Assembly (NCBI RefSeq): GCF_947623445.1
Contig: NC_135242.1
Span: forward strand, 15,562,001-15,626,000
DNA from: Clavelina lepadiformis
Taxonomy: Eukaryota; Chordata; Ascidiacea; Aplousobranchia; Clavelinidae
Length of the DNA stretch: 64,000 nucleotides
Direction of reading: 5' to 3'
Shown in pieces: positions 1 through 61,900 of this stretch (position 1 is the stretch's first letter; each line of letters starts with the position of its first letter). The translations under genes were made by a program, and so were the position numbers. The notes under the pieces are model-generated. The model made no database searches and had not been told where the DNA came from. It saw nothing but the letters and a program-made list of their open reading frames with translations.

Positions 1-3000
1 TGTGAAGAATCAAAGGTTAAGAAGTCTGATTTACAGTTTTATTTGACAAGATATCAAACAACCTTACAGACAATGGGAATTGGCAAAAGAAACGAGTGTA
101 GCGAGGCTGAAGCTCGGCGATATGTGCAACAAGTTAGAACCTTAACAAGCGGTCTGGAAGATATAAAGTATCCCACAAAAATTTATCAGACTTTATGCCA
201 ACAAATTTCAGGTGAAGGACATGACAGCACCAGGTATGCCTACCTGGCAACGCTAAACAACTTTTTGCAGTTTATGCAGATTGAATTCGGAGACATCCAG
301 AAAACTGAAATCGAGAAGCTTTCAAAATATGTCAACCAATGGTTGCAGAGGCAAAGACAGAAAAAAGAAAAACGAGAACGTTTTGTTAAGGACAATTCAA
401 TCAAAAAACTAAGAAAACATTCTTTCCCTGGACAAAAAATTAAAGCATATGAAAGAGCCACTGAAAAAGAAGCAGCTGCCATCCGATGTAAGACACTGGG
501 CTCATTGACCAAACAAGAAATAACTTTCGTTTGTGGCGATATCTTTGCCAGAATAATTTGTAGGCTTGGTTGTAGGTCTTCCACAATAACTGGAATAAAA
601 CGAAAAGAAGTGGAGGACCATGAGGTCATGGATTCTGGTTTTTATTCCATTTTGGTAGCTGACCAGAAAGAAAAAACGAGGCATGCTTGTCTCGTACTAT
701 CACCAGAGGAGTTTGAAGATGTCAAGAAAACATCTGACCATGTATGGTCATTTTTACAAGCACTACCAACTCTTAATGATCGTGTGTTTCCCAGTTTATC
801 TGGCAGCAATTTGAAAGGAAGAATGTCTTCAGCCGCCTTTAACACAATATACAAGAAAATTAGCAGAAAATGCTTTAAAACTCCGGTCAATGTAACTGAA
901 ACAAGAAAATTAATAACCAGAGAAATCAGTGGTAAGCCACGACAAATAAAGGAAGCAATTGCTAGGGCTGAAGGACACACTCTTGGCGTTGCAGATACAT
1001 TTTATGATGTCACACACCCTTCTGAAATTGTGCAAACCGCTCGAATATATCTGGAGGAGATCGCAAGTAAGAAAAATACTAACAATATTGTTTAGTGTCA
1101 TATCTCTTGTATCAGTTTTGTGTTTTATTGATGCATTGATAATGAAAATTGTTAATCCGTGATTACATTTTTTGAAGCATAGTTAAATTTACTTTACTTT
1201 TAGTGAAAACGGTTTCTGAAAGTGGTGTAAAATCTAACACAGGTATGTAGGTGTCTTATTTACCAAAATTCTTAATCGAAATTTTATATCATATTTTTTA
1301 TAAAAGATGATTGCTTCATAAAGTTGTAGGAAATTTTCTATAAATAAAATTTCTAATAGCACTAAACCTGACTGATATGCGATCAAGCGGTTGTCAAATA
1401 GATAACATTTTACTGAAGACTGTGAAATGAATAATGGAGGTAATATTTCCAAGTATTAAATGGTTTAAAAAATGTATTCACTTTTGAAACAGGTGCAGTC
1501 GCTGGCAGTCAGACACAAAAAGCAGCAGGTTTTTCACAAGTTTATTAGTATGCTCATTAAGATAAAATGGTATTTTTTGTTCGATGAGTGTTATAGTAGC
1601 CTATATGCCTGTTATGGTTTATCATCTTTAGCAAAGTTTTTATTTTTGTTTTGCAGAGCCAGTTCCCAACGTGACTGACAAAAGCGATTGTCAAATAGGT
1701 AGAGATCTCACAGAAGATGGTGAAATGAATAGTAGGTGTGATATTTCTAAATATTAAATGGTTTAAATACTCACTTTTTGAACAGGTGCAGTCACTGGCA
1801 GTCAGACACAAGAAGCAGCAGGTTTGTCACAAGTTTATTAGTATGCACATTTAGATAAACTGGTATTTTTTGTTCGATCAGTTTTATAGTAGCTTATATG
1901 CCTGTTATGGTTTATCATCTTTAGCAAAGTTTTTATTTTTGTTTTGCAGAGCCAGTTCCCAACGTGACTGACAAAAGCGATTGTCAAATAGGTAGAGATC
2001 TCACAGAAGATGGTGAAATGAATAGTAGGTGTAATATTTCTAAATATTAAATGGTTTAAATACTCACTTTTTAAACAGGTGCAGTCACTGGCAGTCAGAC
2101 ACAAGAACCAGCAGGTTTGTCACAAATTTATTAGTATGCACATTAAGATAAAATGGTATTTTTTGTTCGATCAGTGTTATAGTAGCTTATATGCCTGTTA
2201 TGGTTTATCACCTTTAGCAAAGTTTTTATTTTTGTTTTGCAGAGCCAGTTCCCAACGTGACTGACAAAAGCGATTGTCAAATAGGTAGAGATCTCACAGA
2301 AGATGGTGAAATGAATAGTAGGTGTAATATTTCTAAATATTAAATGGTTTAAATACTCACTTTTAAAACAGGTGCAGTCACTGGCAGTCAGACACAAGAA
2401 GCAGCAGGTTTGTCACAAGTTTATTAGTATGCACATTTAGATAAACTGGTATTTTTTGTTCGATCAGTTTTATAGTAGCCTACATGCCTGTTATGGTTTA
2501 TCACCTTTAGCAAAGTTTTTATTTTTGTTTTGCAGAGCCAGTTCCCAACGTGACTGACAAAAGCGATTGTCAAATAGGTAGAGATCTCACAGAAGATGGT
2601 GAAATGAATAGTAGGTGTAATATTTCTAAATATTAAATGGTTTAAATACTCACTTTTTAAACAGGTGCAGTCACTGGCAGTCAGACACAAGAACCAGCAG
2701 GTTTGTCACAAATTTATTAGTATGCACATTAAGATAAAATGGTATTTTTTGTTCGATCAGTGTTATAGTAGCTTATATGCCTGTTATGGTTTATCACCTT
2801 TAGCAAAGTTTTTATTTTTGTTTTGCAGAGCCAGTTCCCAACGTGACTGACAAAAGCGATTGTCAAATAGGTAGAGATCTCACAGAAGATGGTGAAATGA
2901 ATAGTAGGTGTAATATTTCTAAATATTAAATGGTTTAAATACTCACTTTTAAAACAGGTGCAGTCACTGGCAGTCAGACACAAGAAGCAGCAGGTTTGTC

Positions 3001-4615
3001 ACAAGTTTATTAGTATGCACATTTAGATAAACTGGTATTTTTTGTTCGATCAGTTTTATAGTAGCCTACATGCCTGTTATGGTTTATCACCTTTAGCAAA
3101 GTTTTTATTTTTGTTTTGCAGAGCCAGTTCCCAACGTGACTGACAAAAGCGATTGTCAAATAGGTAGAGATCTCACAGAAGATGGTGAAATGAATAGTAG
3201 GTGTAATATTTCTAAATATTAAATGGTTTAAATACTCACTTTTTAAACAGGTGCAGTCACTGGCAGTCAGACACAAGAACCAGCAGGTTTGTCACAAATT
3301 TATTAGTATGCACATTAAGATAAAATGGTATTTTTTGTTCGATCAGTGTTATAGTAGCTTATATGCCTGTTATGGTTTATCACCTTTAGCAAAGTTTTTA
3401 TTTTTGTTTTGCAGAGCCAGTTCCCAACGTGACTGACAAAAGCGATTGTCAAATAGGTAGAGATCTCACAGAAGATGGTGAAATGAATAGTAGGTGTAAT
3501 ATTTCTAAATATTAAATGGTTTAAATACTCACTTTTAAAACAGGTGCAGTCACTGGCAGTCAGACACAAGAAGCAGCAGGTTTGTCACAAGTTTATTAGT
3601 ATGCACATTTAGATAAACTGGTATTTTTTGTTCGATCAGTTTTATAGTAGCCTATATGCCTGTTATGGTTTATCACCTTTAGCAAAGTTTTTCTTTTTCT
3701 TTTGCAGAGCCAGTTCCCAACGTGACTGACAAAAGCGATTGTCAAATAGGTAGAGATCTCACAGAAGATGGTGATAAATATTAAATTGTTTAAATTAATA
3801 TACTCTTTTACTTTTTCAACAGGTGCAGTCACTGGCAGACAGGCACAAGAAGAATCAGGTTTGTTAAAAACTGAATTAGTAAATACGTAAGGATACATGT
3901 ATAGGTAGGTGTGTGTTAAGTTAGTGAATATTGCTTGTTGTTCTGGAAAAGTCTGTTTTGTTTATGTTTTCATCGGTTCAAACAAAAAATCCTTCTGTTT
4001 CTTAGGCCCAACGATAGGTGTTGCTATCTCTTTTTCTGAAGGTATCGTATCTACGTGATTATTGGTTATTCGTAGTTATGCTTTCTTACTGAAATTAAAA
4101 CATTAACCGAAGTTGGTCTTTCATTCCGTAGCAACGTGCCTAAAATTTGTTTTGTTATATCTAAATAGCTAACGTCATAAGAGTGAAATTCACCTATGAC
4201 CGAATTATCCTGGACATCTTCAGGCCTGCTGACATCAGATTTGCTTCGGGAGGTGATGTTCAGTCGCTTGCTGACATAAAAATGGGCGAAAAATGTCTAG
4301 CTCGGTGGCCTCCAGACAAACAGTTTTATTTAGCTACAAGAGTTGACCCATCCTTCTGTAAGTTAGTATGGATTTAGTTGAAGTTTCAATCTACCATTAA
4401 GCTTTTACTACCTGTTTGTTTGCGAAAAAAATAGCGTCATTTAGTACAAACAAACTTAGGAAGTGCGTGTTATTTTTTTAGGTACGCCCAAGAAACGAAG
4501 AGAAGGAACTTATTACTCAGATTCCGACACTTCTCCTCAAAAAAAAGTACAATTGCCAGTGACAGCCAAAAGAAGAAGAAAGAAAATTACATTTACCAAC
4601 TTTGAATACGCTTGA
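1..4615 (+). CDS. Tyrosine-recombinase-domain protein with a mini-exon repeat array and Tudor-like C-terminal part (5' end outside the window)
   Basis: Partial at the left edge; the frame is open from base 1. Exons read: 1-1066, 1204-1242, nine 36-nt and eight 42-nt mini-exons between 1493 and 3858, 4006-4041, 4169-4357, 4482-4615. Every intron is phase 1, and the joined sequence (2124 nt, 707 residues in the window) has no stop. Counting from base 43, exon 1 resembles the catalytic half of Crypton-like tyrosine recombinases: Arg178 (GCRSSTITG), Lys209/211, Arg288, His312 (GHTLGVAD) and Tyr321 (TFYD). The first His of the usual HxxR box is Thr285. The mini-exons encode a 26-residue repeat. 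Exon 4169-4357 (GEKCLARWPPDKQFYLAT) looks Tudor-like. The last exon is very basic (KKRRE, KRRRKK) and ends in TGA; an AATAAA lies at 4863. It may be a domesticated transposon gene, possibly nuclear. Exons could also belong to two genes, but the phases fit one. Confidence 0.62.
1493..3858 (+). repeat. Tandem array of a 293-bp unit, each unit carrying two phase-1 mini-exons
   Basis: Eight units start at 1493, 1786, 2079, 2372, 2665, 2958, 3251 and 3544; spacing is exactly 293 bp until the last (279 bp). Each holds a 36-nt exon (1493-1528, 1786-1821 and so on; a ninth copy at 3823-3858) and a 42-nt exon (1657-1698, 1950-1991, 2243-2284, 2536-2577, 2829-2870, 3122-3163, 3415-3456, 3708-3749). The exons follow a pyrimidine-rich AG and precede gtttgt or gtagag. 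In frame they read AVTGSQTQEAA then EPVPNVTDKSDCQIG. Neighbouring units alternate GAAGCAG and GAACCAG in the 36-nt exon, with matching alternation in the introns, so the true repeat is a 586-bp dimer. A decayed extra 42-nt exon at about 1365-1401 has lost its GT donor. Confidence 0.85.
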
Positions 4616-5085
4616 ACTTGTGTAGTTTGAGTTATTTTTTTACTATCTTCTCTTTTTCATTCATTTTCAAATTTCTGTTTCGCGTTCATTATCTGCAGCA
4701 TTTTTTATATCGTGTTATCTTGATACTTTGCAACTGTATTATATCTTTATTGAAGTATGGAATAATGTGTCATTAGTGGAATGATTTACAATATTGCATT
4801 ACTTTGAGAATTTTTTGTGGGTTTACTTTCCCTGTATAGTGTATATGCATCCACCTAGCTCCAATAAAATATTATTCTGCAAATTTCACATGACAATAAT
4901 TTCTAGTAGATCTTTATCGCCAGCTGCTGGTGGACGAGTTTTAGTTTCAAGGAACAAATTTCCTAACAAAATTTGTTTGCAAACAACTTTTTAAAAAAAA
5001 AAGAGCGTATCAAAATTTGTTACATTAGTTAATCTTCATAAATCTTAATTTTGAAAATTTGTTCCCGCGCGTGTATATGGTTCTG
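4616..5085. other. Intergenic, no gene seen
   Basis: AT-rich sequence after the TGA at 4613-4615. A possible polyadenylation signal AATAAA lies at 4863-4868. No other gene or repeat was recognised. Confidence 0.5.
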
Positions 5086-5086
5086 G

Positions 5087-5142
5087 GTTGAATTGTCCGC
5101 GGGTTGAATCGTCCATTGGTTGAATTGTCCATCGTTGGGATT
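5087..5142. repeat. Three short tandem copies of a GGTTGAAT(T/C)GTCC motif
   Basis: The motif GGTTGAATTGTCC occurs three times with small changes, spaced about 17-20 bases. It resembles subterminal repeat motifs of small DNA transposons. The bounds of any parent element could not be fixed. Confidence 0.5.
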
Positions 5143-58935: not shown

Positions 58936-61900
58936 TTAGTTCTTATTTGATGCTTGTACGATGTTAGGAAGTTGAATCTTTATGTCATCAACACGTATAG
59001 AAGCCGCATAGTCCAAGTGAAGATTTTTTTCTGCAAGACTCTGAACCGGCGTGGTATATACTTTTGAAACAGCACTATCTTCGAATGCGCTAAAACTAGC
59101 ATTTGGACATTTGGAGGTCGGCGATGCACTACTGGATATGGACACATCGGCGACGCTTGTTACTGAGAAAGAGGATGCAATACGCACTCTCACTGAAGAC
59201 CAACCCCTTGACCACAGACTGCGCATAAAGCGTGAGTAGAGCAGAGGATTCAACGCGCTGTTTATGGGAAGCAAGCCAATGGCGGTAATGGCGTAAGCAG
59301 CGTCCGGAATTTCATATCCAGCCGCACTTATGAAACTCATGACACATATGGGAACCCAGCATGCGCAGTCAGTGGCGACTAGCAGAGCGATGCGTTTCTG
59401 CATTTCACTGGCACTATTCTTTGACTGTCGCAACTTTTCTTTCCTTTTTCGTTTCTGTGCATCTGCCAGCCTCTTGCGAACCTGTTCTGCTCTGTTGAAA
59501 ACAGATGTCCTTTTACAGGAGATTTCAGGAGATTTTTCGATTTGCTCTGGGTTAGCTGAATTCTCGTCATTTTCTGTTACTGTGACACGTCGCTGCTTAG
59601 CAGGTTTTTGTTGTATGGTAGATTTGTAACTTATTATGGCATAAGCACTAGCAATGTACACGACGGATAAGAAGTTTATCCCTATCACAGTCAAGGTGTA
59701 ACCCCAAATACGGTCTTCCGTGGGCGAGACAAATATCTGTGGCATGCATACACTGTCTGCACTGTAATAACCATAATACTTCCAATCACTGTGATCAGGT
59801 GCAGCGACTTTCAAAAACTCCACCATCTTGTCCCAAGTCGAAAAATCCATGAAGCTTTTCTCCGTTATATTTGTGTTTGTTATGTAAGCAATGCCAGTGA
59901 CAAGATTTACAGCTAGAGTTCGGTTGATATCAGGTGGATGAAACTGTGGAAAAGGCACCCAAGCTGCTTTTATGAAGGGATCTTTGGTCATGGGCAAAAT
60001 CGGAATAACAGCAAAACAAATTGCTACCAACCACGTAACCGAGCAAACTACAATAAGATACCGGAACCTCAATTTATGGCACGAAAATGGTTTAAGCACA
60101 GTATACAGTCTGAGTGTTGTTAAAGCCACTAAGGTATAAACTGAAGTTTGGGACGAAGTGAGCAATATTACACCAAGTATGTTGCACGTGTCGCTCGTAC
60201 GCCATTGCCGATCATAATTCCAATACTGCTCGTTGACGTTATTCTGGCCTTCATATATAGCGGTCATAACTGCCAACCAGAGTAAGTAGATACCCATAAG
60301 TAAATCAGCTGATGCCAAGTTCAGAACAAGAAGTGAATTCCATATTTTAATTAATCTTCGTGTGCCAGTTGCATTACCCAATGGGGCAATTTTTCGACTT
60401 GAATGAACATCGCTGATGGTAGTGATGCCTGAAAGTCTCTTCATAACTCCGTTCGTTAACGTGTCTTTAACAGAAGAACATTTTCTTTTTTGTAAAATAG
60501 CTGAAGCAGTGGCGACTCGGTTTAGTTTAATAAGTTCGGTGATCGTGCTCCATATAACAACGGTGTTGCCGATTAAGGCAGTCACTGCCATAACCCAGAC
60601 TAAAACCTGCAGGATCCAATCCCCTATTAGATTGTAACGCGACGCCACTGAGTTATGGCCACCTGCTAAAGGCCATTCATCACTTCCATCGGAGCAATCA
60701 GCTTGACCATCCATAATTTTCATTTTATCAATATAAAACGGTTCCCTATTTTCACAGTAAAACTTTCCCGGGCATAAGATCTCATCGGATAAGCTGCTGC
60801 ATTGTATCACCCCATCGCAAAGCTCGTCAATGCTCACAGTATCATGGTTTTCTGGCAGCGGCTCCCCAGATTCAAAAAAAATGTCGTCCGTTTTGTTCAA
60901 GTCTCCGAGAATAAACCTTATAATGTACTTCTGTATCGGTGGCGGTTCGCCTCGTCTGTTGTGGCTCATCCAACTTAGAATAACGGATTGATTTTCTGAA
61001 TTTCCAAGATGCTCAAAGTTGGAAAATAACGACGAAGAGCTAAAAGGACCCGAAGAACGAACTACTCTCCTAAGTTCGTGTGGGGCGGACCAAGAACGTA
61101 GTGATGCAAATCTGTTTCTTCTGTTGTTGAAGTTACTCATCTCTTCAATCACACTGCATCGAATTCGAAATTTTGCTAGTGACTGCAGCTTGTTGTCCAA
61201 AATTTTTTCATTCGGAAGAGATGTGCTGTTGTCTGTAACCACCTGCGATTTATTGCCGGTAGCTGTAGTGTCATTGTTAGAGAATTCGAGGTCAACGTCA
61301 GTGCTATCCTCGTTCAAACCACCGCTGTAGGTGTCGTCCGGCTTCATGCCTGTAATTATAACCATTTGAAGAGAGAAATTATATTGGGCGACAGGAAATA
61401 CAAAACTACAGTCTTACGGTGAGATTTTGGCATCCTAAACTGTATTCATCAATTACTGTAAATATACCGTTTGATCAAATTTTCATCTTGACTTGTGACT
61501 ACTACGAATGGTCGGGCACCATCATTAAACAAAGATATTATATGAGCACAAAATACATTGCATAAATATTACGAAACAAGGTGCGGTCCCGGTTATGTAG
61601 CCTACTATCTAAACTACAGTAAGTTTAGTACACGTTTTTGCGAAGAAAATGGTGTTTTTCATATTCGGCCTATATAGTTGCCGTGTGTTGGCACGAAAGA
61701 ATATTTTTGTATAAGCACGCAAAATGCTTAGGATGGTTACCGTTTCAAAGCGTTTTTGCATCATTCTTAGAGGCAGACGTCACAAAGCTTATAGTAACGC
61801 TTACAACTAAACCTTATTAAATAACTATTGATCTAATTTGGTAACAGCAACTAACCTACTCCACAAAAATTTTCATCTTCTCCTTCAGGACAATCCACTT

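Follow-up and report, generated by a model that had tools for sequence, protein, structure and literature searches.

Frame-safe mini-exon units in the gene of a probable Crypton-like DNA transposon of the ascidian Clavelina lepadiformis

Results

A tandem array of mini-exons

The window, the 64,000-nucleotide stretch of C. lepadiformis DNA analysed here, begins within an element of 20,966 bp (G000:C3:15546113-15567078), 15.9 kb of which lie to the left of the window. Tandem Repeats Finder placed a tandem array at positions 1385-3774 of the window, with a period of 293, 8.1 copies and 96% matches. The original prediction, made from the letters of the DNA, had described this region as 17 mini-exons, nine of 36 nt and eight of 42 nt, with further exons of 39 and 36 nt on either side, all of phase 1 at both ends. 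A motif search confirmed this exon set: eight 293-bp units contain nine A exons of 36 nt and eight B exons of 42 nt, each preceded by AG and followed by GT, and the two flanking exons share their phase (Table 1). The constant spacing that had also been proposed is exact, at 293, through the units, but fails at the step to the last A exon, which is 279. Introns within the array measure 128 and 87 bp, and one spliced unit (36 + 42 nt) encodes 26 residues. When the mini-exons are joined to the exons on both sides, the result is a frame of 796 codons with no stop.

In the window's copy the eight B exons are identical to one another. The A exons follow the order K, E, P, E, P, E, P, E and then a distinct last type, and this alternation makes the array largely a 586-bp higher-order repeat.

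Table 1 Features of the element and its insertion site in the window
Feature	Position	Strand	Evidence or comment
3′ part of mobile element	1..5078	+	common ends of four copies and unfilled sites
Exon with tyrosine-recombinase-like domain	1..1066	+	zinc-finger-like motifs at its start, L009:9736; GTAAGA donor at 1067
39-nt exon MKTVSESGVKSNT, phase 1-1	1204..1242	+	found in gene models P0001, P0002, P0006, P0007, P0008
Mini-exon A1, K type, 36 nt	1493..1528	+	motif search
Mini-exon B1, 42 nt	1657..1698	+	motif search
Frame-safe lengthening of exon B by 21 nt at a second donor (position given for unit 1)	1699..1719	+	used after 2 of 5 B exons of gene model P0007
Mini-exon A2, E type	1786..1821	+	motif search
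Mini-exon B2	1950..1991	+	motif search
Mini-exon A3, P type	2079..2114	+	motif search
Mini-exon B3	2243..2284	+	motif search
Mini-exon A4, E type	2372..2407	+	motif search
Mini-exon B4	2536..2577	+	motif search
Mini-exon A5, P type	2665..2700	+	motif search
Mini-exon B5	2829..2870	+	motif search
Mini-exon A6, E type	2958..2993	+	motif search
Mini-exon B6	3122..3163	+	motif search
Mini-exon A7, P type	3251..3286	+	motif search
Mini-exon B7	3415..3456	+	motif search
Mini-exon A8, E type	3544..3579	+	motif search
Mini-exon B8	3708..3749	+	motif search
Mini-exon A9, last, distinct type, shorter intron upstream	3823..3858	+	motif search
36-nt exon, phase 1-1	4006..4041	+	open frame and gene models
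Exon with Tudor-like domain, 189 nt, phase 1-1	4169..4357	+	
Last coding exon, basic tail, TGA stop	4482..4615	+	
Element 3′ terminus (...GTGTATAT, ends at 5078), then target dinucleotide GG at 5079-5080	5062..5080	+	
Flanking 16-bp minisatellite, insertion target of the window's copy	5084..5132	.	

Unit number differs between copies

The window's copy of the element, on C3, has 8 units, whereas the copies on C7 and C2 have 9 and 5. Only these three can be counted cleanly, because the C4 and C1 copies, with one or two units, are products of deletion whose breakpoints lie inside the array or close to it; for the same reason we rejected the idea that recent growth of the array explains lower unit numbers in older copies. 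The C2 copy has a deletion that ends within its first A exon and an altered acceptor at one of the later A exons. The C3 copy differs from the C7 copy at 16 of 11,055 sites and from the C2 copy at 18 of 10,254 sites, and variants private to C3 and to C7 are each repeated across alternate units. Since the counts of 5, 8 and 9 units occur at less than 0.2% divergence elsewhere, with private variants in alternate units, we conclude that change in unit number outpaces the accumulation of point mutations. Units have been gained or lost between element copies, as the original prediction allowed.

Summed over six older lineages, which are few and related, exon B has 7 changes at 252 sites, compared with 62 at 806 sites of nearby intron; the exon B count takes in the decayed matches C1_1449, C1_3768 (two) and C1_28149. 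Divergence of the A exons proceeds at roughly the pace of the introns. As regards function alone, it is about as likely as not that the differences in unit number are neutral drift of a tandem repeat in a linker that is disordered, leaving the element unaffected; this is compatible with the anatomy described above. The drift of the A exons fits this explanation, as do the lack of repeats in a relative from Phallusia and the presence of a 5′ non-coding 203-bp array whose length differs between copies too. Against it stand a design that is frame-safe at both the DNA and the RNA level, second donor included, and the slower change of exon B.

Gene models take in the mini-exons

All five Clavelina gene models that we retrieved use mini-exons. 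Isoforms X12 and X13 of RefSeq LOC143465453 have one unit each, P0008 has three, isoform X3 of LOC143465453 has four, and P0007, which is probably from another assembly than the window's, has five, two of them with exon B extended by 21 nt through a second donor that also keeps the frame. Such gene models typically rest on RNA reads. None of the five contains all 8 or 9 units, and their unit counts need not be those of real mRNAs, because a junction between identical units cannot be assigned to one place from short reads. P0008 is the only whole model among the five: in P0001, P0002 and P0006 the zinc-finger-like part is missing together with the first half of the recombinase-like domain, and P0007 is without part of that domain. 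Together with the differences between element copies, the models support the earlier inference that the mini-exons are spliced into one protein of variable repeat number.

We weighed this against the array being a non-coding intronic satellite with incidental exon-like borders, which transcripts skip and which enters gene models as an annotation artefact. Under a loose splice rule the real unit yields exactly two symmetric open phase-1 exons, and 4.45% of dinucleotide shuffles (n=2000) yield at least two; sequence alone is therefore weak evidence, and since the units were copied from one another, their 17 borders do not count as independent observations. The satellite explanation also gains from the A exons, which lack conservation, from decayed copies, some of which have exon B changes and in which the acceptor AG is lost twice, and from the ability of gene-prediction programs to find some open route across a repeat. 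However, all five models take in mini-exons while choosing different units, the 39-nt, 36-nt, Tudor-like and last exons lie outside the repeat yet have the same phase, and exon B has changed less than nearby intron. We consider the satellite explanation very unlikely and, in its plain form, reject it since the gene models include the mini-exons; examined after the exon prediction, they make the exon pattern firm.

Termini and target sites of the element

Copies on C3, C7, C2 and C4 have termini identical to the base within unrelated flanks. In all four copies examined at both ends, the junctions are GGGTATGG on the left and TATATGG on the right, and the target is GG; the right end is missing in two C1 copies and altered in a third. 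Two unfilled places correspond to the C4 insertion and are the same as its joined flanks over 199 bp except for 6 missing bases, and a 75% unfilled place with the same junction corresponds to the C2 insertion. Removal of the C3 element in silico returned its flanks to the 16-bp repeat period, and a genome search found no whole unfilled site for the C7 copy. No clear terminal inverted repeats were seen by eye, and short direct repeats are present at the termini, as in Cryptons. The common ends and unfilled sites show mobility. A host gene family, possibly of a domesticated recombinase, spread by segmental duplication is a very unlikely alternative. In its favour, the gene is large, multi-exon and host-like, a C1 fragment is repeated four times about 12.8 kb apart and the relative from Phallusia may itself be a host gene. 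We reject it on the base-exact ends of four copies in unrelated flanks and the unfilled sites for two of them in the same genome.

Cryptons differ from DIRS and Ngaro elements in having no reverse transcriptase (RT). By eye, no RT-like ORF was found on the sense strand of L009 (at least 70 aa) or of window positions 1-5078 (at least 120 aa). The opposite strand holds a remnant that looked LINE-like by eye. Rfam gave 0 matches in the window at gathering scores.

The encoded protein

The gene of the element has some 30 exons, among them repeated small ones of basic/acidic character. The encoded protein has zinc-finger-like motifs and a tyrosine-recombinase-like domain that is very divergent; the linker of 26-residue repeats joins the latter to a Tudor-like domain, which is followed by a basic tail. 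For one of six family members, the recombinase-like domain matched the XerA profile (E 2.8e-4). Aligned with a profile of 81 XerD-like proteins, the domain gave a collinear alignment with a score of 27.0, reached by none of 60 column shuffles at the same settings (maximum 19.9); a second setting gave 24.4 compared with at most 21.6 in shuffles, and the hhalign probability was only 4.9% or 2.0%, depending on the setting. The catalytic motif of tyrosine recombinases is of the R-K-H-R-H-Y type, and its HxxR box usually has His. Positions R, K, R and H of the Clavelina domain align to XerD boxes and are followed by Tyr, and in all five rows that extend to the His position of HxxR, it is occupied by Thr. 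At E ≤ 0.001 the Clavelina genome gave no match to PF00589 (Phage_integrase), which matched in 14 of 14 control genomes, a Pfam scan gave no match at E ≤ 1 to DUF3504, the domain that goes with CryptonA, PDB sequence searches with the recombinase-like part found nothing and a PHROGs comparison produced nothing useful. In the searches, the 796-aa query and the profile query were scored among the 8000 candidates sharing most words. The recombinase assignment, judged from sequence, is remote, and the encoded protein may have recombinase activity. The C7 copy has a stop codon in the recombinase-like exon.

Tudor domains have a beta-barrel fold with an aromatic cage. For the Tudor-like domain, a two-row profile gave 19 PDB matches at E ≤ 10, of which 18 are proteins known for Tudor domains; three of these 18 were below E 0.01, the best at 0.0026. 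The LBR_tudor profile matched the Phallusia member, cut to the domain (E 3.9e-4), and a Tudor profile search with the Clavelina member alone matched nothing.

Discussion

With a probability of roughly 0.8, we assign the array to the gene of a Crypton-like DNA transposon, 21 kb long, in C. lepadiformis, where it forms a unit-wise, frame-safe linker from the recombinase-like to the Tudor-like domain. Each spliced-in unit would add 26 residues to the linker ahead of the Tudor-like domain and basic tail, so that the window's copy could give linkers of about 66 to 248 residues. In the DNA, units would be gained or lost when they recombine or slip against each other, often two (586 bp) at once, and skipping would alter their number again in the RNA, with the frame kept at both levels. 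The Tudor-like domain may tether the recombinase to chromatin, and the length of the linker may matter for the element. More tentatively, the element could represent a new ascidian lineage of zinc-finger, recombinase and Tudor DNA transposons, in which the length of the tether between recombinase and chromatin reader is evolvable and splice-adjustable, so that one element samples many linker lengths without a frame break.

The mobile-element context, which the original prediction had no means of seeing, is a larger finding than the anatomy of the array. Near-identical elements that differ in spliced repeat number form a natural series in which an effect of tether length on transposition is testable, and whole exon–intron units have been copied together within the time that it takes for less than 0.2% sequence divergence to arise.

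Among the papers listed by a literature search and judged by title, none was on the Clavelina element. A protein of Phallusia mammillata named LOC104265522 (P0005) has the recombinase-like C-terminal part, a linker and the Tudor-like domain in the same order, with 53% and 39% identity, but its linker is 52 residues long and without repeats. We regard the Clavelina element as Crypton-like, but as a new variant whose linker is built of exon repeats. As in the Cryptons described in the excerpted text of Kojima and Jurka (2011; PMC3212892), there is a gene of putative tyrosine-recombinase type, no clear terminal inverted repeat, a short TATGG repeat at both ends and deletion derivatives; that text gives the Crypton catalytic motif as R-H-R-Y and the TATGG terminal motif for the majority of CryptonS. 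In the same excerpts, animal Cryptons (CryptonA/CryptonI) have no C-terminal domain and terminal repeats were not found, whereas the Clavelina element has a Tudor-like C-terminal domain and TATGG ends, which would make it an animal Crypton-like element with two features absent from the animal Cryptons of 2011. Zinc-finger-like motifs, the exon-repeat linker, some 30 exons and a length of 21 kb also set it apart from the Cryptons of those excerpts (PMC3212892).

Gypsy-10_Ec32 of Ectocarpus was, to its authors' knowledge in the excerpted report (PMC12477816), the first transposable element reported with a Tudor domain, and the Clavelina element would be a second kind. Both are mobile, with a Tudor or Tudor-like domain at the C terminus, but Gypsy-10_Ec32 is an LTR retrotransposon of a brown alga with an unrelated integrase type. 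Schistosome micro-exon genes (MEGs), as excerpted from PMC4350168, likewise have series of tiny symmetrical exons, which can be left out by alternative splicing with the frame intact; they encode secreted proteins and are not described there as mobile, whereas the Clavelina exons are near-identical tandem copies. Most of the coding sequence of a micro-exon gene lies in tiny symmetrical exons, but the mini-exons here make up 660 of about 3,030 coding nt (about 1,010 codons, from the joined frame of 796 codons and the N-terminal 213 residues of P0008), and the Clavelina gene works like a MEG only within the array. Exons are copied in tandem in tandem exon duplication too; in the excerpted account (PMC9013439) this is linked to mutually exclusive choice, whereas the Clavelina units can add in series.

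Mini-exon units are used in gene models

The original prediction of a tandem array of 293-bp units, each with one 36-nt exon (A) and one 42-nt exon (B) encoding 26 residues together, was borne out. The array has 8.1 copies with 96% matches, and a direct search recovered nine mini-exons of 36 nt and eight of 42 nt, every one preceded by AG and followed by GT. The long exon, the mini-exons with their flanking 39-nt and 36-nt exons, and two downstream exons join into a single frame of 796 codons with zero internal stops, ending in TGA. As the 17 borders derive from a few by copying, they do not count as 17 independent facts. Among 2000 shuffled units, 4.45% held at least two symmetric open phase-1 exons under a permissive splice rule; read from sequence alone, the exons would leave doubt.

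We then used the recombinase-like ORF as a protein query and took the matching gene models named Clavelina lepadiformis, a sea squirt. Gene models of this kind are based on RNA reads. Because the mini-exons are read through as proposed in all five models retrieved (P0001, P0002, P0006, P0007 and P0008), most doubt about the array exons is removed. LOC143465453 isoforms X12 and X13 contain one unit each and differ in their choice of first A exon; isoform X3 (P0006) contains four units, P0008 three and P0007 five, two of the P0007 units having a second donor 21 nt further downstream that keeps the frame. P0006 and P0008 represent clusters of 11 and 12 sequences, each on one contig, and their unit counts are those of the representatives. 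None of the five models has the full set of units, and short reads cannot resolve a choice among several identical units. P0008 is the only whole model; P0001, P0002 and P0006 have neither the zinc-finger-like part nor the first half of the recombinase-like domain, and P0007 lacks part of that domain. We conclude that the predicted feature is true and was read correctly: its units are frame-neutral, were copied as exon–intron blocks and are present in varying numbers (one to five) in models that splice them into protein.

A Crypton-like element carries the array

The array is part of a Crypton-like mobile element that carries a Tudor-like domain. We found the element ends by comparing the window, together with 20 kb of upstream sequence, against the rest of the genome. 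Four copies (chromosomes C3, which holds the window, C7, C2 and C4) share a sharply bounded block, surrounded by unrelated DNA, that starts with GGGTATGGTTAGTCC... and finishes with ...GCGTGTATATGG. The left terminus has 17 genome matches with at most two mismatches (reversed control, 0) and the right terminus five; partial copies also lie on C1 and C9. The joined C4 flanks match two unfilled sites in this genome; both are identical to the query across 199 bp apart from 6 missing query bases, which leaves a single GG. For the joined C2 flanks, a relative of 75% identity shows the same junction. No unfilled place for the C7 copy was found in the genome using its flanks. The C3 copy is inserted within a 16-bp minisatellite, and removing the element with one GG restores, by hand, the 16-bp period. 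These data are most simply read as a 20,966-bp element inserted at GG, the mobility of which does not rest on the recombinase assignment.

The first exon of the C3 copy encodes MEEKQCSSKNF. Each of the next nine small exons (60–75 nt) has a length divisible by three and phase 2-2 ends, and seven of them carry versions, identified by eye, of a basic and Ser/Asp-rich motif of about 22 residues. Exon-by-exon repetition thus seems to have arisen twice in the gene, as an old diverged phase 2 set and a young tandem phase 1 set. Downstream follow zinc-finger-like C..C..H..H motifs, a 355-residue one-exon domain, the mini-exon linker, a Tudor-like exon and a basic tail.

Coordinates of features in and around the element. 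Plain numbers are window positions; L009 and L029 are stretches upstream of the window on C3, and L024–L028 are stretches on C1.
Feature	Location	Strand	Remark
Element, C3 copy	C3:15546113-15567078		
First coding exon	L009:2198		
Older phase 2-2 exon repeats	L009:2802-6320		
Flanking 39-nt exon	1204-1242		
Tandem repeat, period 293	1385-3774		
Flanking 36-nt exon	4006-4041		
TGA stop	4613-4615		
16-bp minisatellite (GTTGAATCGTCCGTGG and variants)	5084-5132; L029:3208-4094		both sides of C3 insertion
203-bp non-coding tandem repeat, ~26 copies	L029:5646-10000 and L009:1-881 (C3:15547646-15552881)		5' part of element, upstream of first coding exon; length varies between copies (from spans)
LINE endonuclease/reverse-transcriptase-like remnant ORFs	L009:6931-8157	minus	within element (by eye)
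Element fragment, last mini-exons to Tudor-like exon	C1:2899585-2938044 (L024-L028)		four blocks ~12.8 kb apart
Repeated region at C4 insertion flank	C4:305551-3505340		41 matches (own two flanks counted) over ~3 Mb
Five left-terminus-like sequences (1-2 mismatches)	C8:1114731-1202620		in a 90-kb stretch; may be a group of related or truncated elements
Rhodopsin-type receptor ORF	58936-61413	minus	Pfam 7tm_1, E 6.6e-15; LDL-receptor class A match slightly below cut-off

The recombinase-like and Tudor-like domains

The 355-residue domain may be a tyrosine recombinase, to which it shows remote similarity. Pfam gave only SAM-like N-terminal hints below the cut-off (E 0.0021 and 0.0037), and PF00589 had no match in the genome. 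One of six family members, the relative P0003, matched the XerA model over much of its length (E 2.8e-4). Profile alignment with 81 XerD-like sequences was collinear across the GLR/GCR, Lys box, xxxR and GH motifs with a score of 27.0, reached by none of 60 column shuffles at equal settings (maximum 19.9); a second setting gave 24.4 versus at most 21.6 for shuffles, and the probability of the alignment was 4.9% or 2.0% depending on the setting. Family rows covering the relevant box keep T-x-x-R; H-x-x-R is the usual box in most tyrosine recombinases. Weak matches likewise suggest the Tudor-like assignment: of 19 PDB matches at E <= 10, 18 are to proteins known for Tudor domains, with only three below E 0.01, and the Clavelina exon alone matched no Pfam model.

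Unit number differs between near-identical copies

Unit number varies among nearly identical element copies. Outside both arrays, the C3 copy differs from the C7 copy at 16 of 11,055 aligned sites and by one 8-base gap, and from the C2 copy at 18 of 10,254; B exons number eight in C3, nine in C7 (the first spanning two adjoining sequence stretches) and five in C2. Within C3, the informative sites do not distinguish units 3, 5 and 7, and a private variant is common to units 4 and 6; in C7, with numbering begun after the first unit, a private variant absent from C3 recurs in units 3, 5 and 7. Since copy-private variants recur over units, the arrays were re-copied inside each element after separation. 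A miscount of units in assembly is unlikely, because the genome report (210.1 Mb, 9 chromosomes; PMC10884593) describes a HiFi-based assembly from DNA sheared to 12–20 kb, and such fragments far exceed the 2.4-kb array. Copies with one or two units (C4 and several on C1) were rejected as instances of array change; they are deletion derivatives and were left out of the counts.

Exon B was unchanged relative to the reference unit in 26 of 27 units, with one change in the other, in a set without the first C7 unit and decayed matches. Two older lineages carry one exon B change in 84 sites versus 33 in 406 intron sites (one-sided p 0.011, hand-entered counts). Hand-summed over six lineages (C4, the C1 tandem block, C1_3738, C1_1449 with its twin in C1_3768, the second C1_3768 match and C1_28149), which are related by shared history and in several cases decayed, the counts were 7 in 252 versus 62 in 806 for nearby intron; the acceptor AG is gone from one lineage, and four of the exon B changes fall in a single lineage. 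Including the omitted matches thus weakens but keeps the contrast. Exon A, with 2–3 changes in 36 sites, is conserved no better than introns. These counts lend modest support to selection on exon B and none to selection on exon A.

The repeats may act as a flexible tether joining a DNA-acting domain to a chromatin-reading domain. Where function is concerned, the variation in unit number may just as well reflect neutral drift in a disordered linker; we give this view even odds, and it fits the anatomy set out above.

Comparison with known systems

Chromatin readers of this type target elements. An Ectocarpus paper (PMC12477816) treats the Tudor domains and chromodomains of Gypsy elements as histone readers. 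The Clavelina element was not found in the open-licence literature searched, mostly titles and short abstracts. A Phallusia protein (P0005) has the same domain order as the Clavelina gene, but its linker comprises 52 residues without repeats; the Clavelina linker was counted at about 66 residues in the one-unit isoform versus about 248 with all eight units.
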